A stretch of DNA of 64,000 nucleotides from Carallia brachiata (Eukaryota; Streptophyta; Magnoliopsida; Malpighiales; Rhizophoraceae). The stretch's first letter is position 1; each line of letters begins with the position of its first letter. Positions 7,133-42,209 of this stretch are shown here, one piece after another. Made by a program: the position numbers and the translations under genes. The stretch spans positions 62,001 through 126,000 of the forward strand of contig JADCRB010000095.1 of the NCBI GenBank assembly GCA_021464245.1, given 5' to 3'. The notes under the pieces are model-generated. The model was not told the origin of the DNA, ran no database searches, and saw nothing but the letters and a program-made list of their open reading frames with translations.

Positions 7133-7543
7133 TGTAAAGCGTAAATTTCGAGTTTAAAACAATTAAACTCAAAAATACAAAAATAAATTACAAAATAAAA
7201 ATTGTAAAGTAAAAGAAAATTTACGTGGGGTCGATCTTCGTAAATCCTCCGATTAGTGTTCCTTTTTTTTGACTCCGTCAAGGGCTGCACGAGCTTGATC
7301 TTGACAGAAATAATTTCCACCGCTTTTTCTTGAACTGGATAGACTGAAACTGTATCTGATTTGAACGTTTTGACTACGTTTAGGAACCGTAGAAATTTGA
7401 TCTGAGCCGATCTGGCTTAATTTCACCGAGGGTCGAATGGACTTGTTCTCGGATGAACTGCCTGGATTTTGCTGAGGGTCGTATGAGACTTAATCCCAGT
7501 CGTATTTGTAATATTTTGATTTTTTTTTTTTACTATCTCTCTC

Positions 7544-7574
<31 letters not shown>

Positions 7575-7798
7575 TCGCCTGCTTTTTTTTTTTTTTTTTT
7601 TCGCTTGCTTCGCTGCCTTCTTTTCTTCTGCTGCATTTCAATTGGGGAGGCCATTTATAGGCCTCCCCCACCTGCCTGCCACCAACCAATTGGTTGGTGG
7701 CATTAAAGGTTGGCAGCTGCCAACCTTGACTTCAAGGTTGGCGGCTGCCAACCAAGATATTATTATTATTATTATTATTTTTTAATTATTAGTTTACA
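7133..7798 (-). repeat. 3' LTR of the Ty3 element
   Basis: 666 bp, TG...CA. It contains long poly-T runs at about 7521-7600 and an (ATT)n run near 7761-7780. Compared with the other LTR I estimate about 20 substitutions plus homopolymer length changes, mostly transitions, giving roughly 3% divergence. Confidence 0.93.
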
Positions 7799-7800
7799 AA

Positions 7801-7812
7801 TGCCCCCACTTT
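7801..7812 (-). promoter_or_regulatory. Polypurine tract of the Ty3 element
   Basis: On the minus strand AAAGTGGGGGCA lies three bases before the 3' LTR. This is the expected position and composition for the plus-strand primer, and it fixes the element's orientation. Confidence 0.8.
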
Positions 7813-7934
7813 AAGGGTCGGTAAAAAAGATTTTTACAGAGATAATTCGAACCGAGTCTTGAAGTCCAGTTTGAAATTTTGAAACGTACTGATGAACATT
7901 GAATCTTGGAGTCTTCTATCTTTGAATATGTCTG

Positions 7935-8439: not shown

Positions 8440-8630
8440 TTTCTTTTGAGAAAGAAGAGCTGAGGGGTGAGTATTATAACTCGGGAATGCAAGATATATA
8501 TATACATGCGATAAAGTTTTTTTTTTTTTTTTTAAAAAGTCAAAAAGAAGGTACGCAGATTCGAGTAGGGTCATCCACGTCCCTTTCCTGCATAAGAGAC
8601 AAAAGAGGCAGCGGCTGACGCGTGACACGA

Positions 8631-8730
8631 AAGTCGTTACCGTGTGCTGTAGAAGTCGTTGCCGTGCGCTGCAGAAGTCGTTACCGTGCGCTGCAGAAGT
8701 CGTTACCGTGAGCTGCCAAAGTCGTTGCAC
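8631..8730. repeat. 22-bp tandem repeat, about 4.5 copies
   Basis: The phrase AAGTCGTTACCGTG recurs at 8631, 8653, 8675 and 8697, with a partial copy at 8719, so the period is exactly 22 bp. It is GC-rich compared with its surroundings and starts just past the stop codon of the WOX ORF (minus strand). Confidence 0.9.
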
Positions 8731-8748
8731 CTTATCTTGTCGGCCGTC

Positions 8749-9360
8749 CTAGCGGGGTCCAAGGCGCAGCTCCAAGTCAAGCTCGGCCTCGTCTGGTGGG
8801 CCGATGATGTTGACGTCGCTTTCCGGCTGGTTGATACTGCCGGAATATTCTTGAAACAGAGGCAAAATTTCGCCGGAATGACTCCTTTCTGCTAGAAAAA
8901 TTCCTCCTAGACTTAAGTATCTAGGAGGAATGAACCCTTGGCTGACTCCGTAAGACCACCAGGACCAGCATGCATGCTCCCATGGGCCACGGCTTTGATG
9001 AACACACCGTGGAGAGACCATTGCAATGGAAGAACTCAGACCTGCTTCATTTGAGGGCGAAGCTGTACCAGTGGGATTTACTATCGGAACGACAGATTGT
9101 TCTTTGGAAGAAGCAGTTCTCAGTGCTGGTTTCTTTCTGCTTCTCCGATTCTGGAACCAATAAAACACATTTTTTCCTTCGATTGCCCCGAGCGGGCGCA
9201 ATCGTGAGACAAGTTGGTAAATTTGAGATGCACTAGGAATAATACCTCCATTGTTGTGGAAGACTTCCTCCAAAATTTGCAGTTGTGCCATGGTCGGTTG
9301 CCACCTTGTGCGAGGTGACCTTTCTTCACCCTCGTGTTGAGATTCTGCAACTGGTTCCAT
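8749..9360 (-). CDS. WUSCHEL-clade WOX homeodomain protein captured in a Ty3 retrotransposon
   Basis: An intact 203-codon frame from a true ATG at 9360. Residues about 17-79 form a WOX homeodomain: TRWQPTMAQLQILEE (helix 1), then IIPSASQIYQLVSRL (helix 2), then the recognition helix in IEGKNVFYWFQNRRSRKK (60-77). NVFYWFQN is diagnostic of WOX proteins. Downstream, EILPLFQ (164-170) resembles the WUS-box. The C terminus carries LDLELRL (194-200), an LxLxL EAR repression motif. Homeodomain, WUS-box and EAR in this order are the architecture of the WUS clade, nuclear transcription factors that mostly repress and maintain stem-cell niches. The frame is uninterrupted, unlike typical WOX genes, which are split by introns. 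It sits between the pol stop (9872) and the polypurine tract, in pol orientation. A TATA-like AAATATAAA lies about 90 bp upstream (9451-9459). Homology is seen directly; activity is unknown. Confidence 0.85.
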   Translation of the reverse strand: MEPVAESQHEGEERSPRTRWQPTMAQLQILEEVFHNNGGIIPSASQIYQLVSRLRPLGAIEGKNVFYWFQNRRSRKKPALRTASSKEQSVVPIVNPTGTASPSNEAGLSSSIAMVSPRCVHQSRGPWEHACWSWWSYGVSQGFIPPRYLSLGGIFLAERSHSGEILPLFQEYSGSINQPESDVNIIGPPDEAELDLELRLGPR

Positions 9361-9576
9361 CTTTCTTGTGGCAGAGGAGCAAAGGTCTTGGTATGTGGTG
9401 AAGATCGGTTGAGACTGATGCTGAGTTTCAGACTCAAACCATCCGTCGTGTTTATATTTTTGGGCCGTTCACAGTTTATACTCATGCAGGCCAGAAGTTG
9501 GGTTGGATTTTGAACTTGGGTTCTGGACTGTGTTTGGGACTTGGAATTTTTGGGTTTTGGGCTTTGGATTGGTTTT

Positions 9577-9692
9577 GGGTCGAGTGTTTGAGTTTTGGAA
9601 TTGGATTTTTGGATTTGGGTCGAGTGTTTGGGTTTTGGATTTGGATTTTCGGATTTGGGTCGAGTGTTTGGGTTTTGGATTTGGATTTAGTT
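9577..9692. repeat. 40-bp tandem repeat, about 3 copies, upstream of the WOX ORF
   Basis: GGGTCGAGTGTTTG starts at 9577, 9617 and 9657, so the period is 40 bp. The surrounding 9490-9780 is a degenerate GT-rich (GGGTTTTGGATTTGG) tract followed by poly-T. It fills the space between the pol stop and the WOX promoter region. The long Gly/Phe/Trp open frames across it are artefacts of the repeat. Confidence 0.85.
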
Positions 9693-9871
9693 TTCAGGCT
9701 TTGGAGTTGGACTCTGAATTGGGCTCAAGTGTTTGGGTTTGGATTTTCGCTTGGTCTTTCAGATCGGGACTTCGCAATTTTTTTTTTTTGATTTTTCTAT
9801 TTTTTTTCTATTTTTTTAATTTTTTTTCTTTTTTCTTTTTTTTTTGATTTTTTTTTATAAAAAAAACATAT

Positions 9872-10704
9872 TTACACATAATACTGTTTCAGAAATTTAC
9901 CATTGATCGGGCCGATTCGGACGCCTTCTTGGTCTGACAACATGTAAGCGTTGTGAGTATAGGCCTCGTGCACTAGGTATGGCCCGTCCCATTTGGAAGT
10001 AAGCTTGTCACCAGGCCGATGCTTCATGTTGATGGGCCGTCACACTGCAAGAACAAGGTCTCCAACTTGAAAAGATCGAGGGCGGACCCTGCGGTTGAAT
10101 GTGTTGGTGAGCCGGGCTTGGTAGCACTCAAGTTGCTGTTGTGCTTCGAGCCTCCTTTCATCGAGAGCTTCTAACTCATCCAGACGTAGGCGAGCATTCT
10201 CCTCCTGTGTGAGTCCTTTCAGAACAGCCATGCGCAGAGATGGAATCTGTGTTTCCAACGGTAGTATTGCTTCGACACACCGTCGACAAGTGAGTATGGT
10301 GTCGCCTGTATTGGAGTCCAGTAAGTTGTACGATACGCCTATAATGCCTCCGGAATTCTGTCATGCCAATCTCTTTTGGATTTAGAGACTACCTTCCGCA
10401 ACAGGTTGCATAAGGTCTTGTTGAATGCTTCAGCCAAGCCATTTGCCGGGGCATTGTACATGGATGACTTGTACTGCTTGAACTTGAATTTCTCGCAAAG
10501 CTTGTCGATTAAGCTGTTGTAGAACTGCTTGCCATTATCAGTGATGATGAATCGAGGGACTCCATAGCGATAGATCAGCTGAGTCCGAATGAAATTGGCA
10601 ACATGCTCCTTCTTTACCTCTCTAAGTGGAATGGCTTCAGCCCATTTTGACATTCCCACTCGAAGTTGACATCTTTCTTCATCAACCGATGGAAAGGTTG
10701 ACAT
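9872..10704 (-). pseudogene. Ty3 integrase, N-terminally deleted and frameshifted
   Basis: The remaining core reads from SKWAEAIPLREVKKEH through FIITDNGKQF (second catalytic Asp) to the Glu region (NGLAEAFNKTL). It continues in another frame after about 10350 with a C-terminal part containing RLTNTFNRRVRPRSFQVGD, and ends ...GKFLKQYYV-stop at 9872-9874. The HHCC zinc domain and the first catalytic Asp are absent, removed by a deletion that joins reverse transcriptase directly to the integrase core at about 10650. Integrase inserts the cDNA into the host genome; this copy cannot. Confidence 0.85.
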
Positions 10705-11398
10705 CTCCCAGCTAAATTGGAGATGAAACGGCGAATGTAGGCCAGCTTTCCTTGTAGACTTCGCAGTTCGTGCAGGTTTTTAGGTTCAGGCATCTTTTGA
10801 ATTGCCTCAACCTTTGACTGATCAACTTCGATTCCACGATGGCGCACCACGAACCCAAGAAACTTTCCTGATGTGACACCGAATGCGCACTTGAGAGGGT
10901 TCATTTTGAGCTGATGCCTCCGAAGTCTTTCGAACACTGTCTTGAGATCCTCGAGGTGGTCTTTGCGCTTCTTAGTCTTTACAACTAAGTCATCAACATA
11001 ACATTCTACAATCTTGTGCAGCATGTCATCAAAAATTTTTTGCATAGCACGTTGATAAGTGGCGCCAGCATTTTTCAATCCAAACGGCATAACTTTGTAG
11101 CAGTATATACCTTTTGGGGTGCGGAATGCTGTCAACTCCTCGTCTTCTGGTGCCATTCTGATTTGGTTATAGCCTGAAGAACCATCCATGAAGACAATGC
11201 TTCGTGACCCGTTGTTGCATCGACTGTGATCTCCGTTATGGGCAATGGAAAGTCATCTTTCGGGCAGGCCTTGTTAAGATCTCGAAAATCAACACATACC
11301 CTCAACTGTCCATTCTTCTTTCTTACCGGGACAATGTTGGCAATCCACGTTGGGTAGGTGACCTCTCGGATGAAGCCGGCATTGATCAGCTTGTTCAC
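10614..11398 (-). pseudogene. Ty3 reverse transcriptase, frameshifted; RNase H deleted
   Basis: Two overlapping frames carry the RT domain. 11398-11132 has WIANIVPVRKKNGQLRVCVD (palm, first catalytic Asp region) and 11189-10650 has MDGSSGYNQI, MPFGLKNAGATYQR and the YVDD box (CYVDDLVVK). They are separated by a frameshift near 11190. The connection domain (LHELRSLQGKLAYIRRFI) follows. The sequence then jumps from MKKDVNFEWE into the integrase core at about 10650, so no RNase H remains. RT copies element RNA into DNA. Mobilisation would need enzymes supplied by another copy. Confidence 0.9.
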
Positions 11399-12123
11399 CT
11401 CCTCCTCGATTTGTGGAATGAGTTCCGGGCGGAACCGTCGTTGTGGCTGCTTGACAGAACGACACCCTTCTTTACTGCTAGACGATGCACCGCAATTTTT
11501 GGGTCAAGTCCAGGCATTTCTTTGTAACTCCATGCGAACACGTCCCTGTATTGACTTAATACCTGAACATATTCTTGCTCTTCTTCTGCAGTAAGTAAAG
11601 CACTTACAAATGTAGGTCGAGGATCTTCCGGAGAGCCAAGATTGACCTCCTTGAGTTCATCAACAGTTGCTTGGCCACCATCTTCAAGTTCCGGGGGAGC
11701 CTCCTTCACTTCACCATCTGATGAGTCGGAATCAGCCTCCTCGCTAATTGTGACATGAAATGCAGAACCTCTGACTTCACCTTCTTTGTTTGACTGGATA
11801 AGCCTGTCTTGTTTGGTGGTGGTGGTGATGGCACGTGCATCAGCTGCTCGGCTTCGGCTCTTTAGCGTGATCCGCACAGGTGACTTCTCCTGATAGCCTA
11901 AGCCAGGTCGGGACTGTGATGTTTGAGAAGCGGCGCCATGTGTGGACGGCAGCGTACCCATTGTGCTCGGGTTTGAGAAGTCATAGCCCGCCTTTGCCAA
12001 AAGCTTGTATGCATTAGGATCAAATCCTTCATGTGTTCTTCTTTCTGGAAGTGAGCCGCCTTCGACTGCCCCCGTGTGTGGTTTGACAAAGCCTTTTAAT
12101 GGTTTTGAAGATAACCGGCTCAA
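11395..12123 (-). pseudogene. Ty3 pol linker between protease and reverse transcriptase
   Basis: The frame covers the protease-RT linker and RT N-terminus: the glycine-rich LGYQEKSPVRITLK segment, an acidic stretch, EEEQEYVQVLSQYRDVFAWS and PKIAVHRLAVKKGV. A frameshift about 40 codons before the next Met-led RT frame breaks it (near 11440). This layout is usual upstream of RT in Tat-like elements. Confidence 0.8.
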
Positions 12124-12153
12124 TCTTTGGTATCGGCAGAGTGTAAGTCTCCT

Positions 12154-12850
12154 TCAGGTTGTGCAGCTCCTTTGTTTTGGGTTGGCTATGACCTTGCTCC
12201 TGTTTAAGATCAATACAATAAGAGAAAGGGGGTTGACCTTCTGAGCGTCGTGACTTCGGCACATAGCGTAGGACTGGAGTGGAGCTTGAAGATGCAACAT
12301 CCTTCGGACGAGTTCAGCAGGCTGTGGCAGCTTTTCATTTGTTGGAGCCTGGGGTTGGGCATTGGCAGGTTCTTCGACAGCTTTTCCCTTTTTGTGGATG
12401 CCCCCAGTCCAAGTAGCTTTTGATGGAATGATCTCCGGATTGTCTGTGTCAGTGTAGAAGACTGCATCCGCCAAATGTGATTCAGCATCATCGAACGGCT
12501 TTAAGTCAGCATTGACCTTTTGAACGCCACCATTGTAGTACTTGAAGCACTGATGCAGGCTTGAGAGCACAACTCCATTTCCATGAATCCACGGTCGTCC
12601 TAGCAACATCTTATATGTGGTACGTGCATCAATCACGTGAAATAGAGTGCTAGAAGTGAGATTACCGATAGTTAGCTCCAAGCGAATCATCCCAATTGCT
12701 TTCTGTCCTCCTTGATTAAAGCCATGAATCATCAAGCGGCTGTCTGATAATTCATCAATGCCATGCCGAGCTCCTTTATGGTGGATTTTGGGATAATATT
12801 GACTGCTGACCATCGTCGATCAGAATACGTCGGACCTTCTGTTCTCTCAC
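12154..12850 (-). pseudogene. Ty3 aspartic protease domain, broken at the active site
   Basis: RRILIDDG marks the retropepsin active-site loop (a DDG variant common in plant Ty3 elements). The frame is lost directly after this loop by a one-base shortfall and continues in another phase with GFNQGGQKAIGMIRLELTIG and KMLLGRPWIHGNGVVLS, the flap and C-terminal strands. Protease cleaves the Gag-Pol polyprotein. The break in the active site alone would inactivate this copy. Confidence 0.85.
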
Positions 12851-13151: not shown

Positions 13152-14702
13152 TCACCTCTTCTGATGGTTTTGAAGTGATGGTGGTCTGGTTTGAGGTATG
13201 CCTTCCTGGTCCAGAATGATTTTATTCTGGCTTTTGAGCTTCATGATTAGCTCCTTCAGGACGAAACACTTCTCGGTTGGATGACTTACTATCCGGTGAT
13301 ATTTGCAGAATCTCGGATCGCTGACTCGATCCTTTTCATTCGGCCGCTTGCACTCTGGGAGTTCGATCAGCTTCGCCTCCAAGAGTTGTTCAAGATGTCG
13401 GGGACGTCTGAGTCGGGGAATGGATACTGCTTCTGCTCCAACTCTCGCAATGTCACCTTCCGCCTTTCCTGTTGTTTTGGCTGAGTTATTTGGGTCGGAG
13501 GATTTACCTTAGCTTTGGCGCCCACTTTTACTGGTGCGGCTTCAACAGTCATCACTTCTTTCCTTTTCCGGAGCTGTTGGGTTTCTTAATCTCCCTTCTG
13601 CCCCCTTGCTGGTCCAACTGGATGGGAACCGTGCCTCCGGAAGTCTGGATGCTTATCTCCATATCATGTGCGCGGGTCGCCAGTTCTTCGAAAGTTCGGG
13701 GTTTGACACCCTGCAGGATGTATAACAGCTCCCAATGCATTCCTGGATGCACATCTCCACGGCAGAAGTCTCCGTCAGGCGATCTTTGCAGTCCAAGCTG
13801 AGGGCACGCCATCTGTTGATGTATTCGACAACGGGCTCTCCTTTCTTTGTTTGGTGCTGGTAAGCTCCATCATACTTACCGTCCTTCGAGTGCTGAAAAA
13901 TCTGTTGAGGAACTCTCGTTGTAGCTGTTCCCAACTGTCGATCGATTCTGGTTCAAGATTTATGAACCAGGTGAAAGCGGTCTCCCTGAGTGAACGAACA
14001 AACTGCTTCACCAAGAGATCTCCGTAAGTCCCTGCGTTGTTGCAGGTTTCAACGAAGTGGGCGATGTGCTGTTTGGGATCGCCTCGTCCGTCGAATTGTT
14101 GAAATTTGGGCGGTGGTAGCCCAAGGGCATGTTGAGACTTTCGATCCGTCTGGTGTACGGTTTGACGTACATCTGTGATCCTTGGAAGGATGTAGCTTGT
14201 TGCAGTCGGATCGTATTGGCTATCATTTCCTGCAATTGTTGAACAGATAGCGAAGCTACAGAATTTGAGGGTGGCAGCTGTGTAGAACTACCTGGTCGCT
14301 TTTCTGCAGGGAAGACGTCGGCTGGTGTGGCTTCTGGAGTGAAACCGGGTGGATATGGTTGCTCCTCGCGGATTTCAGGATCAACTTGGATCGGGGCTTT
14401 TCCTTTGAGAGCGGCGATCTGTTGATCTTTTTCCTCCACGACTCTGATCAGCTGCAAAATTTTGTTCTCCAATTCTGAAATCTTTCTTCTGTGCTGGTTG
14501 TGTTGGTCATCATGACGGCAACAGATGAGGCTCCGGGAAAGACTGGGGGAGAAAACTCTTCTGATTCTTCTGTGTGAGTCGGATTTTGTTGAGCAGGCTT
14601 CGTCGTGTTGCCCCCGACTTCGATCGGGGTGGGTGATCGACTCCTCCATGCGGCAAGAGAGTCAGAGGAGAGATCCTGTTGTGCAAGCTGTGGACTCTCC
14701 AT
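13152..14702 (-). pseudogene. Ty3 gag, multiply frameshifted
   Basis: Successive frames cover an N-terminal acidic region (from an ATG at 14702), a coiled coil (ISELENKILQLIRVVEEKDQ), and the capsid-like Retrotrans_gag domain split over three phases: VKQFVRSLRETAFTWFINLE, then [19 protein letters not shown], then [20 protein letters not shown]. The trailing FCKYHRIVSHPTEKCFVLKE motif is characteristic of this plant Gag family. Phase changes occur near 14490, 14100, 13860 and 13740, so no full Gag can be made. Gag forms the virus-like particle. Confidence 0.88.
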
Positions 14703-14848: not shown

Positions 14849-15051
14849 GCCATTTGATGTGCTGAACACCTGTAAAATTTTTTTTTTTTTTTACTTTTTA
14901 CTTTTTACTTTTTTTTTTTACTTTTTTTCTTTTTACCTTTTTTTTTTACTTTTTTACTTTTTACCTTTTTTTTTTTACTTTTTTTTTTACTCTCGGCTCC
15001 CCTTTTACCTCCTTTTTTTTTTTTAAGGAATAAGAGATGGGAGGTGAAGAT

Positions 15052-15069
15052 GTCCCACCGAGCGTGCCA
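15052..15069 (-). promoter_or_regulatory. Primer-binding site of the Ty3 element
   Basis: On the minus strand TGGCACGCTCGGTGGGAC begins six bases inside the 5' LTR boundary. The position and the leading TGG (pairing with a tRNA CCA end) are as expected. It is not the initiator-Met site used by copia elements; the tRNA was not identified. Confidence 0.75.
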
Positions 15070-15075
15070 AAAATT

Positions 15076-15732
15076 TGTAAAGCGTAAATTTCGAGTCTAA
15101 AACAATTAAACTCGAAAATACAAAAATAAATTACAAATAAAAATTGTAAAGTAAAAGAAAATTTACGTGGGGTCGATCTCCGTAGATCCTCCGATTAGTG
15201 TTCCTTTTTTGACTCCGTCAAGGGCTGCACGAGCTTGATCTTGACAGAAATAATTTCCACCGCTTTTTCTTGAACTGGATAGACTGAAACTGTATCTGAT
15301 TTGGATGTTTTGACTACGTTTAGGAACCGTAGAGACTCGATCTGAGCCGATCTGACTTAATTTCACCGAGGGTCGAATGGACTTGTTCTCGGATGAGTTG
15401 CCTGGATTTTGCTGAGGGCCGTATGAGACTTAATCCCAGCCGGATTTGTAATATTTTGATTTTTTTTTTTTTACTATCTCTCTCTTTTTTTTTTCTTTTT
15501 TTTTTTTTTTTCGCTGCTTTTTTTTTTTTTTTTTTCCTTTTTCGCTTTTTCGCTGCTCTTTTCTTCTGCTTCATTTCAATTGGGGGGCCATTTATAAGCC
15601 TCCCCCACCTGCCTGCCACCAACCAATTGGTTGGTGACATTAAAAGTTGGCAGTTGCCAACCTTGACTTCAAGGTTGGCGGCTGCCAACCAAGATATTAT
15701 TATTATTATCATTTTTTAATTATTAGTTTACA
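15076..15732 (-). repeat. 5' LTR of the Ty3 element
   Basis: 657 bp, TG...CA, collinear with the copy at 7133-7798. It contains the same poly-T and (ATT)n tracts, shortened. As the upstream LTR it would hold the element promoter; no specific TATA box was assigned. Confidence 0.93.
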
Positions 15733-17259: not shown

Positions 17260-20200
17260 CTAAAATGTGTCCATTTTAATGGAAGGACGCTTTCTTCTGC
17301 AATGATCACGGGTCCAACCTGAAGGACGAAGGACATGCTTGAGAATGTCTCTGACGACATCCAGAATCTCTTCTTCATTGCAAGAGGTCACGAACTTCAC
17401 TGCTCCAAGGACAGAAATTCTCATTAAATTTTGTATTAACGGGTAAAAGGGGTGGTGCAAATTGAAGGACTTATCACATAAGACTATTTTATTTGCTTAA
17501 TGCTGTCAAAAATTCTTGTCCACTTAGACGGGTAAAACAGGGGAATTCATAAAACATTTGGAAAATTTGTCGTCATGAACCTTGCTTCGCAAAGTCACGA
17601 GTTTAAGTGGTAGAAATAATTTTTTGTATAATCATAGAATAAAACTGTATACATCTAATCATTCTTCCGACCTTATAACGTTAGAGTCTTATCTGAATAT
17701 GCCCCTTTTTAACATGTTTATAACTGATGGTATAATTCATTGAAGAAGATTTCACCGAACATGTCACATCTTCCAACAAAAATTACAATGCCTTTACACA
17801 TACATCAATCACCACTTTATGATTATGTCAACATAGGTATTAAATTTCTAATTGAAAGTTTGCCCAAATGTTAGGTTAATGACATCACTTAATCCAGTAG
17901 TAACATAGCCAACCGGCTATTAATGGTCATTATGATAATGTAGAAAATGATTAAGAAGAGTAAAACAGAGTTTAATGAAACCTCTGACCAAACATCTCGG
18001 CATAGTCAAACTTAAATAATGCAACTTTATTATGTTGAACAAGGTCAGGTAGGTACTAGATAATAAGTATCCGTTTAAGTTGAGCAATTAATAAAGAACT
18101 GACTGCTAATGGCTAACACTTTTTTATCTCATAAAACTAGCAATGTTAGGTATAAGTGACATTTGATTAGGTCTGTTAAACCAAATATCCCCCTTCAGTT
18201 CATAAGCAATAATCAACAATAAGTGACCCGCAACTTGTACCCAATAATTGGTGACTAATTATTAAATTGATAGCAACCAAGAAAGATAATATTAAAAAGT
18301 ATAATCTGATCTCACTCACTTTTAGGAAAGTTAAGTTAACTAAATACCAAATATGAGAGAGAAAAAGAATTTTAAGGAATCCAGCCGAAATAAGAAAAAG
18401 AAATTTAAGGAAGAGACATAACATTGATTCCTATTATACTAAAAAAAAAAGGTGAATAAACTAAATAATCACCATAATATTAAATAAACACCATAATATT
18501 AGATAAAAGTGAATTTTCTTTTGAGTGAAGGAAATCATTACATTAATTTGTGCGAATTTTGTACATAAAACTGATACGAAAGTGTGGAAATTCAGTTCCT
18601 AACTGAAGAATTTGGTTATCATCTCCTATTTGAATTTAAATGTAAGATAAGATGATATCATATTTTATCCGATTAGTTTTCTGGTCCCATTAGATCAGGT
18701 GTTGGTGTTCAAAATTCAAAAGGAGAGTAATCTCCTTATTTTTGGTTTTAGGATTAGGAGATAAGACCTATTGTACAAAGGCTATAAATAGTTCTGCTAT
18801 CTTGTATTTTTTGATTAAGCATCAGTTGAATAAAAATTTTACTGCACACAATTCTCAAAATCTACATAGTATCAGAGCAAGATGATCTGAACCTTTGCCT
18901 CTAGTAAATTTATCATGTCCAACAAAGGGGAAACAATGTCCAATCCTGGAGCTGTCATCACCAGCAGTCTCAGCGGATCAGAAGGCTCGAGTCTTCAAAT
19001 CACAGGTCACAAACTCAACGGACAAAATTTCCTTCAATGGTCTCAGTCCGTTATGATGTTTATTTGTGGAAAAGGGAAAGAGGACTACCTCACAGGGGCT
19101 GTTACACCTCCAGAGGAGAATGATCTGAAATTCGAAGGCTGGAAGTCAGAGAACAGCATGGTAATGTCATGGTTGATCAATTCCATGACTACTGACATTG
19201 GAAAAAATTTTATGTATTACAAGACTGCTAAAGAAATCTGGGAGGCAGCAAAAGAAACCTACTCTAACAGAGACAATACCTCTGAAATTTTTGAAATCAA
19301 GAGCATCCTCCATGATCAACGCCAAGGTGATCTCCCGGTGACAGAATATTTTAATATTCTGACATGTCATTGGCAGCAGCTCGACATGCTCGAAGAATTT
19401 GAATGGAAATGTTCCGATGATTCCAAGAAATATAAGGACATCATTGAAAAGGATCGAATTTATAAATTCCTCCTTGGCCTTAATAAAAATCTTAATGAAG
19501 TTCGTGGAAGAATCCTCAGCGCTAAGCCACTACCTAGCATTCGAGAAGTATTTTTAGAAGTTCGAAGAGAAGAGAGCAGGAAAAAGGTGATGTTAGGATC
19601 TCAAAACACTATTCTTGCCCCAGAAAATTCAGCCCTAGCTACTCGAGGACCCAATTCAGCAACAATACTGATAATCGACAAAGAAAGGAAGACCATGGTG
19701 TGAACACTGTCGCAAACTAGGACACAAAAAGAGACATTGGAAAATTCATGGAAAGCCAGCAGACTGGAAACCATCACGTCCTTCCCAGGAGCGGGACAGC
19801 TGTGGCCATTTAGCTGCCACAGAGCCTCAAACCTCTGTTGAATCAAGCCCATTCAGTAAGGAAACAATTGGATCTACTGCAGAAAATGTTCCAGCATACT
19901 ATTCTACCACAATCGGTAATGGTTTCTAGCACAAAAAGGTAATTTTCTAAGAGCCTTAAGTGTAAAACGAGAGAAATCAAACTCATGGATTGTGGATTCA
20001 GGAGCATCAGATCATATGACAGGAGATATTTCCATATTTCATAAATATGATCCATGTTATGGCAATTTCATAGTCCGAATTGCAGATGGGTCACTCTCAA
20101 AAGTGGCTGGCACAGGTTCTGTTGTGATTTCAAAGGACCTGACCCTTGAATCTGTCCTATTTGTTCCAAGCTTAGATTGCAATTTGCTATCCATAAGCAA

Positions 20201-23200
20201 ACTTACACGAGATCTCAATTGTGTTACTAAATTTTCTTCAAATATTTGTGAATTTCAGGACTGGATTCGGGGAAGATTGGCAATGCTAGGATGTGTGCGA
20301 GACTCTATTCCTTAGAGGTGATAATCTTGAAAGACAATCTCAGAAGACTTCTTGTGTGTGGGTTATCTACTAGCAAAAATAAAGATGATGCAGTCATGTT
20401 ATGGCATTATCGATTAGGGCATCCAAATTTCTTGTATCTTGAAAAGTTTTCCCATCTTTATTCAATCAAAATTCAAAATTTTTCAGTGTGAGATTTGTCA
20501 ATTATCCAAACACACTCATAATACCTACCCTAAACAGCCCTACAAATCATCTCACCCTTTTTCATTGGTACATGGTGATATTTGGAGACCATTTAGGGTT
20601 AATAACATTACAGGTTCCAGGTGGTTTGCTACTTTCATTGATGATCACAAAGAGTCACATGGGTGTTTCTCATGAAAGAAAAATCAGAGGTTAGTCAGAT
20701 ATTTCAGAATTTCAACAAAATGGTCCAAACACAATTTCAAACCAAAATACAAGTCTTGAGAACTGACAATGGCAGAGAGTATTATCACTCCATACTCAGT
20801 TCATATCTCTTGGAATTCATATCTCTTGGAACAAGGCATAGTCCATCAAAGCTCAATTGTTCAAACTCCGCAGCAAAATGAAGTTGCAGAAAGGAAGAAT
20901 CGACATCTAATGGAGGTGGCAAGATCTCTCATGCTATCTACAAATGTTCCAAAGCATTTTTGGGGTGAGGCAGTCCTTACTGCGACATATCTTATCAATC
21001 GAATGCCATCTCGAGTCCTAAAATTCAAAACTCCATGTCAAGCCCTCCTTTCCACATATCCTCACACTCGGCTTATCTCATCTATTCCTACCAAGGTATT
21101 TGGATGTACTACCTTTGTTCACATAGACCAACATCAGAGCAAGTTAGATCCAAAATCCATCAAATGTATATTTCTTGGATACTCTCCCAACCAAAAAGGC
21201 TACAAATGTTACTCCCCAGTCACTAAGAAATTCTACAACTCCATGGATGTAACATTCTTTGAAAATCAACCTTATTATGCCAAATCTACTATTCAGGGGG
21301 AGAATCCTATCACAAGGGAATACCAGCTTTGGAAAACTAAATTATCTTCCACATCACAGTGTCCAATTATCCAATTTCTTCAATTGCTGAACCTACACAG
21401 CTCCTTACCATTGAACCTCCAAACACTTCTGAGTCCCAAACCCAGCAAATTCAGCCTGAGTGCAAATCCGAAGGCCACACAAGAAAAAGCTGACAAAGAT
21501 CTGATTGTCTATTCAAGGAGACAGAAAGCTCAAGAGGTTTTAGAGGATCATACACATTCCAAGCAAAACCTTGAATCTGAACTGAATTCAGAAAATCTTG
21601 AAATTTGCCCAGGTAACACTATTACTGAATCTGATTTTTCTGAGCCTTCTAATGATGTTGATCTGCCAATTGCTTTGAGAAAAGGTGTGAGATCATGTAC
21701 TCAACACCCAATTAGTAACTATGTTTCTTATGAAAAGTTGTCACCTAGTTTCCGAGCATTTGCTACTGCTCTCACCAATTTACAGATTCCAAACAACATA
21801 TATGAAGCCCTAAACCAACCAAAGTGGAAGGTGGCTGTTTTAGAAGAGATCCAAGCTCTAGAAAAGAACAACACATGGGAAATTGCAGATTTGCCCAAAG
21901 ACAAAAATCCCGTTGGATGCAAATGGATTTTTACAATCAAACACAAGGCTGATGGGAGCGTGGACAGGTTCAAAGCAAGACTTGTTGCAAAAGGATTTAC
22001 TCAATCCTATGGCATAGATTTCGAGGAGACATTTGCCCCGTTGCTAACTCAATTCAGTCCGAGTTTTGTTATCATTGGCAGCAAACTTGGATTGGCCACT
22101 TCATCAATTGGATGTCAAAAATGCATTCTTAAACGGTGACTTAGAAGAAGAAGTCTACATGAAGATTCCTCCGGGATTTGAAACTCAAGACAATGCCAAC
22201 AAAGTTTGCAGGCTCGAAAATCCTTGTATGGTCTCAAGCAATCCCCTCGTGCTTGGTTTGGTAGACTAACAAAAGTGGTAAAGAAGTGTGGTTTCTTACA
22301 ATGTCAATCAGATTACTATGTTTATTAAGCATACATCTGCAGGAAAAATGGCCATTCTCATTGTCTATGTAGATGACATAATCCTCACAGGAGATCATAA
22401 GGATGAAATAAGCAACCTAAAAAGGTTTTGCCAAAGAATTCGAGATCAAAGACCTTGGTTATCTCAATATTTTCTTGGCATGGATGGGTGGCACGATCAA
22501 GAAGTGGAATATCAGTCTCTCAAAGAAAGTACATTCTTGATTTACTAAAGAAACTGGGATGCTTGGATGCAAACCAGCAGATACTCCAATGGACCCAAAC
22601 AACAAAGTAGGAATGGAGGAAGGAAGTCCACTTGTTGACAAGGGTAGATATCAGAGACTTGTTGGTAAACTTATTTATCTTTCACATACAAGACCAGACA
22701 TTGGCTTTGCAGTAAGCATGGTGAGCCGGTTCATGAACAATCCAACTGAACAACATTTAGGAGCTATACATCGAATTCTACAATACTTAAAAAAGAATCC
22801 TGGTAAGGGGTTATTTTTTAAGAAAACTTCAGACAAGAATATTGAAGTGTTCTCAGATGCAGATTGGGCTGGATCAGTTACAGACAGAAGATCAACTACA
22901 GGGTATTGTACATATGTTTGGGGGAATTTGGTTACTTGGCGGAGCAAGAAACAATCTGTTGTTGCAAGAAGTGCAGAGGCTGAGTTTAGAGCTATGTCTC
23001 AAGGAATTTGTGAAGGAATTTGGCTAAGAAAAATACTTGGAGAGCTAAAAGTTACAGCTAGAGAGCCCATAAAGGTATTTTGTGACAATAAAGCAGCTAT
23101 AAGCATTGCAAAGAATCCAGTTCATCATGACAGGACAAAACATGTGGAAATTGATCGTCATTTCATCAAAGAGAAAGTAGAAGACAGAATTATCAAACTT

Positions 23201-26200
23201 GAGTACATGCCTACATGCAATCAAATTGCAGACATTCTAACCAAGGCACTTTCTCGGACAAATTTTGATAATTTAAAGTCCAAGCTGGGTATGATTGATA
23301 TCCATAACCCAGCTTGAGGGGGAGTGTGGAAATTCAGTTCCTAATTGAAGGATTTGGTTATCATCTCCTATTTGAATTTAAATGTAAGATAAGATGATAT
23401 CATCTTTTATCCAATTAGTTTTCTGGTCCCATCAGATCAGGTGTTGGTGTTCAAAATTCAAAATGAGAGTAATCTCCTTATTTTTGGTTTTAGGATTAGG
23501 AGATAAGACCTATTATACAAAGGCTATAAATAGTTCTGCTATCTTGTATTTTTTGGTTAAGCATCAGTTGAATAAAAATTTTACTGCACACAATTCTCAA
23601 AATCTACAGAAAGTATTGAAGAAATCTGCACAAATTAAGAATAAACAATACAATGATTTACAATTGACCAAGCCAAACTAACTATTTTTAATTAGGACTT
23701 TAAGCCCACAAATTTCTTTGATGAGGGTACAAATTAGACTAGCCAGACAAATCTGCACACAGCAACAAATATCGCATTTCAGGTAACTTACAACGAAAAT
23801 TGATTGGATATGCTCGACATTGATTTCCCTCAAATCTAGATTATAAGACAAAAACAAACGAAATATAAACAAAGTCACCCACACAAAACAAACTACATAA
23901 AATATCACATAAACAAAATAATCCACTCATCCTAAAATATTTTAAACACAGCTTTTTCAAAGAGATCCTGTGGCGATGATGAAGACATGGTCGACGATGG
24001 CCCTAGCAATGGTTGGATCAATGAAGGCCGCAATGGCTGCGCCAGTAGTAGGACTGGCTCCGATGGGGACAGCGACATATGCAGTGACGAAGATGGCAGC
24101 ACCGGTAGCGAGGACAGTGGAGAACACTGAGGCGAATGCGACGAATAAGAAGACAAACATAGCAAAGACGGTGGCAGAGACAGCGAAAATGGCGGCAACC
24201 TGCGGAACGACGTAAATCGGACGTCGAGGAGGCTGTTGGTACCTTTATTTAGGCCAGATCTTGGAAGAGACAAACCAAAAAACACTATGACAAAAGAAAA
24301 TAAGAAGTTGAGTGGGGTGGAGAGTAGAGAAAAAAATAGATGGAGGATAAGGGGAGGGGACTAGGATGGCTGGCCGATGAAGGTGACCAGCTACCTCCGC
24401 TGACCAGAGGCTAGGAGAGGCTTTGAGGGAGAGACTTATAGAGAGTTTAGAGAGATAAGCGTTTAGAGAGAGAAGACAGAGAGTTCCTTTTGAATTTTAT
24501 TAGATAAAAGTGATTGACACCAAACACCTAAACAATGATATATTCCTATCCATTAAACTAATGAACTCATACCCATAATTGATAAAACCACATTAAATTG
24601 CTTCTTATAAGAAGGGAAAAGGGTAAGTAGAGGAAACGCGTCAAAAGCAAAAAAAAACATCCTCTTTACTGCTAAAACATTGAACAAAATGACATTAGAG
24701 GTAGGAGGAAGTGTATTTGGAGTACGAAGAAATGAGGAGAAAGGAGAAGAAAAAGAAGGAATGTTGAGAGAAAATAAAATTATTTAGAATAGTAGAGAAA
24801 GTTGAGAGAAAGAAAATAGGTAAAAGAAAAAATAAATAGTAATTTGTAAGAGAAAAAGTAAAGAAAAAATAAAATTATTTGAAGTGGTAAAAAAAGTGAG
24901 AGAAAGAAAATATTGTGAAAAAAAATGTGAATAGTAATTTGTGAGAGAAAAAGTGGAGAGAAAATAAAATTGTTTATAGTGGTATAGGAAGTGAAGAGAA
25001 AGAAAAATAAAAAAAAATTAATGATAATAATTATATTTTTTTCTTTTTTTATTTTTTCTCGTACACTAAACATGGCTTAAGGGTAACCAACAAAGAGAGC
25101 TAGAAGAGGACAAAACAATCAATTACTATTCAGAGAAGAAAGGCCCAATCTGGCAGAGGAGCAATCTTCCACTCAAGCAAGATAACAAAAAATAGGTACC
25201 AGTGGGTCCATCTAGGTCCTTTCTGTTATAATCACAGCCATCAATTATCTAAAAATCATAAGGCTTCTCTTTGGATAAAAACCAATATGTACACTCATAG
25301 ACAGCCTGTTGAGGGCATCCCTTCTACCATCATCACCCACCTTAATCATTCAATTCCAGACACTCTAAGATCCACACGTGTGATTTTTGGTGGAAACCAG
25401 TTTGGTGTCTTCTTTCTCTTGAAAGAAAACTTATTGTCTTATGGAGAAGAACCATCTAATGGAAATTACCAAATTCGTTATGTACGTGAAGCAAGAAAAA
25501 CATTTTATGTCTAGAGAAAAACAAAGTGGATTGTCGTAGAGCACAAATGGAGCTGCACAAAGCATCAACAAATACTCATCCAATATAAAGTTGTTTCTTG
25601 AAAGACTTTCTTCTCACACGTGGGCAAATTAGCGACCCACAAAAAGAGTCCACACTTTTCCGACGATCTACTAAAAATCAGACTGACCCCGTACAAAAAA
25701 TTTGAACAACGGCTGTATGTTGAATTTCATCATTGTTTTCTAGTCTTATCATGGCGAATGCTTATTATGCCCAATGAAAGATTTTTTTTTTAATCAAAAA
25801 AAAATTCATCACGATTATATAAATTATCAGATTTGTGAATTGAAATCAGAATACCTCTTATTTGTTTTACCTTATTCAATCACTTCTAAATCACAGACTC
25901 ATCACCCAAGTACTATTAAACTTAAAGAGCATTTTTTACGCTGATTACAGTATTAATAAGTTGTGAATCTAATTATTACGCTTCAATATAAATCTTATTT
26001 ATTTGGAGACAGGCGATAATACAATCACTCAAAGTTGGGTCATCGCAAAAAAAAAAATACTTAATTATTACTAAATTATTGCCTCTAATGATTCTTAAGA
26101 AAGATCAGTGCGTGAAATTAACATTATATGAGACCATGCACATAAAGTCACCATAAGCCTAGGCTTCCTGTTATTGGCGAGCATTTAGGTCCACCCACAT

Positions 26201-39637: not shown

Positions 39638-40972
39638 GGGCCCGTTTGGAGACGCGTGTCAGTTTTTATTTCTGTTTTTCATTTTTTGTTTTTTACTTTT
39701 ACTGTTTGCTGAATTTTTATATTTATTGTTGTTAATTTTTGTTTTTTTTTCTATAAGAATAAAATAGATAGAAAAAGGATAGTGAGAGAAATGGTAAAAA
39801 GAGTATAATATAGAGAGAAAAATGAGAGAGAGAGAGAGAAAAAGGGTAGAGAGAGAATGACTAGAGAGAGAAAAAGGAGAGAGAAAGAGAATGAGTAGAG
39901 AGAATGACAGAAAGAGAAAGGGTTGAGAAAGAATGAGTAAACAGAATATAAGAGAGAGAAAAATGAGAGAGAGATGATAGAGAGAGAATGAGTAGAGAAA
40001 ATGATCGAGAGAGAAAAGAGACAGAGGGTAGAGAAAGATCGAGTAAAGAGAATGATAGCGAGAGAAAAATGAGAAAGAGGATAGAGAGAGAATGAGTAGA
40101 GAGAATGGTAAAACAAGAAAAAGAGAGAAAGTCTAGGTAGAGAGAGAATGAATAGAGAGAGAAAAAGGAGAGAGAGAGGGTAGAGAGATAATAGTAAAAC
40201 AAGAAAAATGAGAGACAATGTGGGTAGACAGAAAGGAGAGAGAATCTGGGTAGACAGAGAATGGTAGAGAAAAAAAGAGAGAGAGAGAGGGGGCAGAGAG
40301 AGAACGAGCAGAGAGATGAGCAGAGAGAAGATAGAACAAGAAAAAGAAGAGAGAATGGTAGAGAGAGAAAAATGAGAGAGCGGGTATAGAGAGAATGACT
40401 AGAGAGAATGGTTGAGGGAGAAAGAGGAGAGAGAGAGAGTGGGTAGAAGGAGAATTAGTAGAGAGAATGGTAGAAAGAGAAAAAGAAGAAAGAGGGTAGA
40501 GAAAGAATGAGTAGAGAGAGAAAAGAGAGAGAGAGAGAGGGTAGAGAGAGAATGGTAGAGATAGAAAAAGGGGAGAGAGGGTAGAGAGAGAATGATAGAG
40601 ATAGAAAAAGGAGAGAGAGGATAGAGAGAAGGTAGAGAGAGAAAAGGGAGAGAGAGGGTAGAGAGAGTGGAGAAAGAGAGAGTAGTGAGAGAAAAAATAT
40701 AGAGGGATAGAGAGATAGTAAAGAGAGATATGGTAAAGAGGGTGGATAGAGAAAGAAAATGTTGTAAGAGAAAATATAGAAAAAAAAAAAGTAAAAAACA
40801 AAATTGGAAAGTTAGTTTTTATTATTTTCCCAATTTGTTTTTTTTCTTTGAAAAACATTTTTAACTTTTCAACAAAAAAACAGAAAATAAAATTAATACT
40901 AAACCTGTTTTCTATTTTTTTTTTTGTGAAAAATAAACAGAAAACAGAAAACCAATTCATTTCAAACGGGCC
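39638..40972. mobile_element. GAGA-rich element with inverted GGCCCGTTTG termini
   Basis: GGGCCCGTTTG at 39638 is matched by CAAACGGGCC ending at 40972, each flanked by TAA, so this may be a PIF/Harbinger-type MITE with a TAA target duplication. Between the ends, about 39780-40760 is a nearly pure purine tract of AGAGAGAATG-GTAGAGAGA-type units of irregular length. Long Leu/Ser-rich frames on the minus strand simply reflect this repeat. Family assignment is tentative. Confidence 0.5.
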
Positions 40973-42209
40973 TAAATTAATAAAAAAATAAATAAATATT
41001 TTGATATTGTTAGATGAAATTATAAAATTATTTTTAGTTATACATCTTGTAACTACTTACATGAAGCCATGTATTCTTACTGTTACTATTAATTATTCAC
41101 CCAAATGGTTTACAGTCGAATTTTTTAGCATTAACCGGCCTTCTATTTTTGCCTACCACGCACAGTATAATCACCTTAATTAGAAGGCCGCACTTACATG
41201 CACATTCATTAATTACAAATTAAGAGAAGACCTGCATGGTACGGTGACTTGAATTGTGCAGAATATGACGTCACTCTTTAGAGAAAATTATTTGACTTTT
41301 TTTTTTTTTTTGGTGACTAATGGAAACAGAAAATACAGGAAGAATTTAAATAACTGCTCCTTCTCATGGAAGAGCTTACTAATTTTATAATTTTAAAGTC
41401 TTGGCGAGGGAGATTCTCAAATCTAAAACAAAAAATTTAATGTAACACTAAAATTAATTATTAAATCTACACAAAAATTCTCTTCTCTTAGTATATGGCT
41501 ACGCTGACAACTCTAATTATGCTTTCAATAGATATAAGCAGGCAACAATAATAGGTCTACAATGATCAAATTCCTATCCTTTCATAATAATTTTTTGCAA
41601 CGCAAGGAGGATCGGATTCTATAATAATGTTGCGCGACCCTCTTCTCTCAGGCCAATTTCAAGGCCATATGAATCATTTGGCTTTGAGAATGCTGTTGTA
41701 TATCATATGTTTCATTGTGTTTGTTGCACATACTTGGAATCATATATTGATTCACACGTTACAGCGTTGGGATGTCCTCTTTGGTTTCCAACCACTAGAT
41801 ATCATTACATTTGTTATTTAGAAAAGGAAAACTATATCAGGATGCAGAAAAGTAACACGGGCCAACACAGGGACCACGCGCCCACGATAAAATGTTGTTA
41901 CTATTATTACTTTTTGAAATTTAATAATTTTTTATGACAAAAAAAAATTTAATAATTTTGACAAACAATTTATATGGTGTGCATGGAAGTTAAAAAATGT
42001 ACGGAAAATGTGCATGAAAACTAGTGAAAGAGTAAAGCTCTCTTGTTGCACTTTTTCCCAAAATTTTAACATATTTTGTAAAGTCTACTTGCATAATTTA
42101 TTAGTCCTCTTGCACATGGTATGATTTTTACTAGTATATATATTAATTTTGATGATGTCTCTTTGCATCCCTGGCGCATCTGCTTTATGTCCCAATATCG
42201 CGACTCTTA
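40973..42209. other. Intergenic DNA, nothing recognised
   Basis: AT-rich; short open frames near 41627-41937 lack recognisable domains. Confidence 0.4.

Follow-up and report, generated by a model that had tools for sequence, protein, structure and literature searches.

A WUSCHEL-type homeobox gene carried within a Ty3/Gypsy LTR retrotransposon family of Carallia brachiata

Host genes captured by plant LTR retrotransposons are mostly fragments and are present in few copies. Among Ty3/Gypsy elements, an additional RNase H marks the Tat clade (PMC10508981), and in Retand the region between pol and the 3' LTR carries antisense ORFs that mostly encode TRP28 and sense ORFs with no known domain (PMC11963269), as described in the available portions of both papers. 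Neither homeobox, homeodomain nor WUS appears in the available portions of two reviews that deal with extra ORFs and gene capture (PMC7264820, PMC13317346), and no earlier report of a retrotransposon-borne WOX or WUS gene was among the matches listed for titles and abstract openings of the open-licence literature. The accessible part of one paper mentions, for a cluster of rose genes, a similarity termed 'WUSCHEL protein terminator', which is unrelated as far as shown (PMC3503547). A search of IMG/VR for WOX together with reverse transcriptase (RT) returned nothing, nor did an Rfam search at gathering scores.

The window analyzed here is a stretch of 64,000 nucleotides from Carallia brachiata (assembly GCA_021464245.1, contig JADCRB010000095.1, positions 62,001 to 126,000 of the forward strand), in which a Ty3/Gypsy LTR retrotransposon carries a WOX ORF, in sense, in the interval from pol to the 3' LTR. 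The features of the element, all on the minus strand, are as follows:

7133..7798 (-), 3' LTR, 666 bp, TG...CA
7799..7813 (-), purine-rich tract adjoining the 3' LTR, AAAGTGGGGGCATT, read from the sequence
8609..8740 (-), 22-bp tandem repeats directly 3' of the WOX stop
8749..9360 (-), WOX ORF, 203 codons plus stop, with homeodomain (residues 17-79), EILPLFQ and LDLELRL EAR-type motif
9450..9456 (-), TATA-box-like site, TATAAAC, about 90 nt before the ATG
9569..9753 (-), 40-bp tandem repeats in the interval between pol and WOX
10342..10779 (-), frame fusing the end of the RT region with the integrase core
10617..11252 (-), reverse transcriptase (Pfam PF00078, E 3e-31)
11395..12819 (-), middle region of gag-pol, frames broken; protease region by position only
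13778..14287 (-), gag (Pfam PF03732, E 4.4e-8), frame broken
15050..15075 (-), presumed primer-binding region adjoining the 5' LTR
15076..15732 (-), 5' LTR

A preliminary description had proposed an intact 203-codon WOX ORF at this place in a Ty3 LTR element, and the ORF (coding part 8752-9360, stop codon 8749-8751, minus strand), the Pfam matches and the LTRs all agree with it. The two LTRs, with TG...CA ends, are identical at 621 of 656 aligned bases (K2P distance 0.056; 29 transitions and 6 transversions), and the bases on either side of the element, TCACT and CCACT, form a target-site duplication in which one position differs. At substitution rates of about 0.7-1.3e-8 per site and year, this LTR distance dates the insertion to roughly 2-4 million years ago. 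The pol frame is broken, and the copy lacks the RNase H, the additional RNase H and the N-terminal part of the integrase; an integrase core fragment (rve) on the same strand scores 27.4 bits, under the Pfam cut-off of 32.6, and a Pfam search of the middle region (11395..12819) gave no match. About 1.5 kb between the RT and the integrase core is missing from the window copy, since a gap of that length separates the two halves of its fused RT-integrase frame in 18 of 20 ten-kb loci fetched from the genome. Elsewhere in the window, the ORFs at 18891-23317 belong to what we take from their motifs to be a Ty1/copia-type element, and low-complexity sequence extends over 39659-41056, where the open frames overlap and are rich in S, L and F.

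Searching the 337.5-Mb host genome in six frames for the WOX protein gave, out of 2252 first-look candidates, at least 150 scored near-full-length matches at 85-100% identity, a lower bound on copy number; counted by eye, 107 of the 150 contain no internal stop and 43 do. The 20 ten-kb loci were chosen from these matches, many from the youngest group, and all 20 contain the WOX, with integrase upstream on the same strand in 19. A second sample avoided choosing by protein: the non-coding flank 3' of the WOX served as the query, 40 of 1295 candidates were scored, and 644 neighboring bases were taken at 20 of the 40 flank-matched places. The WOX was present in all 20 of these as well. The element had been proposed to have taken up a WUS-clade gene and spread it, a proposal that these counts bear out, and the idea that no other family member carries the ORF clearly fails. 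The WOX-bearing element has amplified, and the status of the WOX as an integral gene of the element family is well supported.

Across the window copy and its relatives the domain order is gag - RT - RNase H - integrase. A single 957-aa pol frame in one relative (L014) contains RT, RNase H, RVT_3 (additional RNase H) and both zinc-binding and core integrase, and the additional RNase H of this one relative is the feature that places the family in the Tat clade; another relative (L017) has a weak protease match below the cut-off. One locus (L027) has LTRs and a WOX, in sense as judged by the LTR ends, and no gag, RT or integrase match; this LTR-bounded unit of about 4.8 kb (L027:4898-9737) is a short derivative that retains the WOX. 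At some copies the whole LTR-WOX unit has moved: perfect 5-bp target-site duplications were read by eye at L021 (GTGGG) and L026 (GCGAT). The flanks of L015 (CTCTC and CTGAT) show no target-site duplication, and the outer end of the remaining ten-kb loci was out of reach or ambiguous. Within-element LTR distances, taken over a 396-bp part in the 12 of 20 loci with both LTRs in reach, range from 0.008 to 0.119, with noise added by poly-T tracts and unusual spacing at L011 and L025. L011 holds two WOX-LTR units in tandem, about 3.4 kb apart.

For comparisons among copies we used a protein-ranked set of 53 records, from which six same-place repeats were dropped to leave 47 distinct places with 35 distinct sequences; a match in three pieces (L041) had been excluded beforehand. 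Twelve of the 47 places have an identical WOX sequence in common and have therefore resulted from recent spread.

The window protein matches the Pfam Homeodomain (E 2.2e-12), with no other Pfam domain found on the ORF, and among proteins of solved structure its sequence is closest to the WUSCHEL homeodomain (E 3.3e-18). The element homeodomain is predicted to fold into three helices with pLDDT of about 95 or more, and in a structure search all 11 matches at E <= 0.001 were WUS-HD or STENOFOLIA, led by 6ryd and 6ry3 (WUS-HD, DNA-bound). Motifs were counted over the 47 protein-ranked places, with the WUS-box consensus TLxLFP and the motif consensus taken from the available part of PMC4901127: TLxLFP occurs in 35, the C-terminal LxLxL in all 47 and the helix sequence NVFYWFQN in 45. 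The EILPLFQ of the window copy, earlier called WUS-box-like, does stand at the WUS-box position but departs from the TLxLFP of the 35 copies. An extra homeodomain loop residue is common to the element and two host WUS genes and absent from the other seven host loci; spinach WOX2 has it too. Two flank-selected copies (L077 and L078) form a third WOX subfamily with the helix NVYFWFQN and altered basic residues, and the L077 frame is fully open. This might reflect altered DNA specificity or relaxed constraint.

The preliminary description also had the element possibly carrying a TATA box along with the gene, and such a box is seen beyond the window: among the 26 distinct upstream sequences shown, 24 have TATAAAA at about 90 nt from the ATG, and L051 has TATGAAA. 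Such a TATA-like box would allow the WOX a promoter of its own without proving one. We rejected a promoter common to element and host WOX loci, since a blastn comparison of the region upstream of the element WOX with the host loci gave no match. Binding sites for the element's own protein in the LTRs were likewise rejected for want of a clear excess of WUS binding words: in four LTRs, TAATTA, TGAATGA, TTAATSS and CACGTG were not clearly above shuffles, and in the best case the TTAATSS count was reached by 31 of 200 shuffles. TAAT is in excess in both window LTRs, an effect we attribute to a TAA microsatellite; an excess of TGAA is confined to the L028 LTR.

The host genome contains at least nine native WUS-clade loci. 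The element homeodomain is 42-48% identical to these nine, reaching 48% with both host WUS genes, and it is about equally distant (41-53% identity) from every WOX compared, with no relative above 53% among the 28 proteins found in the protein set. In a homeodomain tree of about 65 sites the element forms a long branch beside all WUS-clade sequences, which does not place its origin. Recent capture from a host gene, which the preliminary description had entertained, is unlikely given such low identity to the nine loci; the distances would fit a capture old enough, or an evolution fast enough, to erase close similarity. In seven of the nine host loci an intron separates the homeodomain from the WUS-box or EAR motif that follows, as seen from a change of frame or from stops between the two, whereas the element WOX is uninterrupted between homeodomain and WUS-box, which fits the capture of a spliced WUS-type mRNA; L035 and L037 have no downstream motif in the stretch examined. 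EAR-type LxLxL motifs also occur in host WUS L031 and in the WOX5-like L034. Among the host WUS/WOX genes there are similar pairs (L031 and L032, L035 and L036, L033 and L039), a pattern that suggests whole-genome duplication in the host lineage. Among the best 120 of 2904 protein matches to a native WUS exon, the top named ones are from Erythroxylum and Hevea (76-78% identity over 83-89% of the exon), ahead of other eudicots, which makes the host likely to be a rosid lacking close kin in the protein set. Three short proteins from Ipomoea are WUS-like (P0010 and P0011 by name, P0009 unnamed and nearly identical), and two of the three have TLPLFP or TLSLFP and LELSL motifs.

Stops are present in 3 of the 47 protein-ranked places, and mean dN/dS in this set falls from 0.98 in the closest pairs to 0.37 in the most distant. 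For the homeodomain plus EAR motif (HD+EAR, 78 codons), a codon model estimated omega at 0.19 for internal branches and 0.47 for terminal ones, compared with 0.95 and 0.93 in the other 131 codons; an internal HD+EAR omega of 1 was rejected (2 delta lnL 13.4), and the difference between internal and terminal branches was not significant (3.1). Over the whole ORF, internal-branch changes at the three codon positions number 30, 21 and 32, close to neutral, and pN/pS of 1.5 in the WUS-box region of the protein-ranked set indicates that the box is not conserved. The RT of the same loci has an overall pN/pS of 0.60 (153 pairs, 19 sequences).

We also projected N and S changes onto branches against an expected N fraction of about 0.69 from a context-dependent spectrum (CG, CHG, CHH), specifically 0.686 for internal HD+EAR and 0.71 for the rest. 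In the protein-ranked set, a first projection gave N:S of 7:17 internal and 42:42 terminal in HD+EAR, and 39:20 and 142:58 in the rest. A stricter projection gave 7:18 internal (P 3.7e-5) and 43:39 terminal (P 0.0017) in HD+EAR, with the rest neutral on internal branches (41:18) and at 118:50 on terminal ones. Part of this signal may come from ranking bias, because terminal HD+EAR constraint should be absent after insertion. The totals differ between HD+EAR (50:57) and the rest (159:68; P 5.8e-5). In the 20 flank-selected copies the same comparison is a trend only (45:30 vs 81:31, P=0.083), split into 20:13 internal, which looks neutral, and 25:17 terminal in HD+EAR, and 30:18 and 51:13 in the rest; with a cruder alignment the HD+EAR counts were 23:10 and 41:27 (P=0.13), and part of the internal N stems from L077 and L078. 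When 55 distinct copies were combined, the difference was again significant (90:76 vs 227:92, P 2.8e-4), as was internal HD+EAR by itself (29:31, P 9e-4). We take these counts as a sign that HD+EAR is constrained in the successful subfamilies; for the whole family this is still unproven.

Only 4 of the 20 flank-selected copies are free of stops and frameshifts, and 4 have an in-frame stop by substitution. One-base deletions outnumber substitutions in several of them (five against four in L066, five against two in L073); of 48 such deletions, 9 fall in homopolymer runs of at least four bases, a class that accounts for 36 of the 609 bases, and 16 lie outside any run. The excess among L063-L082 is likely, though not proven, to be residual long-read assembly error, so frameshifts, including those in the window gag-pol, are poor evidence of age or relaxed selection. 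A clean ORF beside a broken gag-pol had been read as a hint of constraint or recent capture, a reading that these 4 clean copies and the error-like deletions undercut; constraint itself is borne out in HD+EAR by the protein-ranked and combined sets, whereas the rest of the protein is neutral and the flank-selected sample falls short of significance. A matK search of the same assembly gave 11 matches, decayed or short, among them a decayed plastid matK-like one (G000:C99:3312209-3313192) with 17 stops.

We consider it probable that a Tat-clade Ty3/Gypsy family captured a WUS-type gene long ago and that the gene now acts as an accessory gene of the element. A spliced WUSCHEL-type mRNA would probably have been acquired, in the distant past, by template switching during reverse transcription, and the element would have retained the WOX since then as its third gene, occupying the pol-3'LTR (env) position in sense orientation. 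Transcription from its own promoter would yield a short DNA-binding repressor with a homeodomain and an EAR motif, a motif that in known proteins recruits TOPLESS. Such a repressor may have aided the spread of the element. It would most likely act on host genes or chromatin in cells of the meristem or germline lineage, from which new insertions pass to the progeny. An accessory gene is thus the most likely identity of the WOX, and a role in the life cycle of the element is reasonable but unproven. A bolder form, that the family domesticated a stem-cell regulator and uses its own WUS-type repressor, made from its own promoter, to hold cells in or to target a stem-cell or germline-competent state, or to shut down host silencing there, and so obtains heritable insertions, strikes us as unlikely.

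The same family could have arisen if the gene was captured once and copied as a passive passenger whose protein is useless to the element, with the apparent conservation due to short time and the picking of copies. The neutrality of most of the protein (131 codons), the third subfamily with its changed homeodomain and the lack of significant constraint in the flank-selected sample all speak for a passenger, which we nevertheless judge somewhat unlikely: ranking did not lower N in the rest of the protein (159:68 against the expected 0.71) and yet HD+EAR stands at 50:57, the combined set still differs between the two parts, LxLxL is retained in every one of the 47 copies, and the short derivative L027 kept its WOX with no gag, RT or integrase match. 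The source may instead have been a gene from another plant lineage, or the element may have arrived by horizontal transfer, rather than deriving from a host WUS. This would accord with the equal distance of the homeodomain from every WOX compared and with an RT that matches plant and environmental fragments at up to 87% identity and apple ones at 80-82%; fast evolution after an old capture yields the same distance, however, and no WOX above 53% identity turned up among the 28 proteins, so a foreign source seems quite unlikely.

So many copies of WUS-clade sequence in one genome could conceivably act mainly as RNA, as an antisense or small-RNA source directed at host WUS genes, but homeodomain identity to the host loci is below 50% and the upstream region has no blastn match to them, making such action very improbable. 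An ordinary host WOX gene lying by chance between two LTRs would account for an intact WOX-type ORF in a genome that has WOX genes of its own. It is refuted by the 150 scored copies, the same position with integrase in 19 of 20 ten-kb loci, the target-site duplications around the unit, the missing intron and the homeodomain identity of only 42-48% to host loci. A complete transcription-factor gene of the class that sets stem-cell identity is integral to this family, which numbers 150 copies or more. Should the protein be active, the element may govern the cell state in which its own insertions are transmitted, and the WOX would be the plant equivalent of a retroviral accessory gene. Even a passive gene fills the genome with WUS-clade DNA-binding domains that could disturb WUS/WOX circuits, and the number of WOX genes counted in such genomes may be too high.

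The element WOX resembles WUSCHEL in its homeodomain fold, the TLxLFP of most copies, the C-terminal LxLxL and the extra loop residue, and differs in being 203 aa long, intronless, element-borne and multi-copy; the end of helix 3 reads RRSRKK, against HKARER in WUSCHEL. With Retand the family has in common the additional RNase H that marks the Tat clade (PMC10508981) and, as described in the available part of PMC11963269, an extended pol-3'LTR region containing tandem repeats and an extra ORF for a predicted DNA-binding product, although here this ORF is in sense and encodes a homeodomain, whereas the Retand ORFs with known domains are antisense and mostly encode TRP28. VANC and KIU of the Vandal (MULE) elements are likewise element-encoded accessory genes, and KIU bears a captured host domain; Vandal is a different element class, and the hypomethylation of related elements reported there is only a possibility for the WOX family (PMC13317346, available part). 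Transduction of the maize Bs1 type, as given in the accessible portions of PMC7264820 and PMC13317346, likewise placed host gene sequence in sense between LTRs; unlike it, the family described here has kept a complete homeobox regulator in multiple copies, with signs of constraint on its functional parts.
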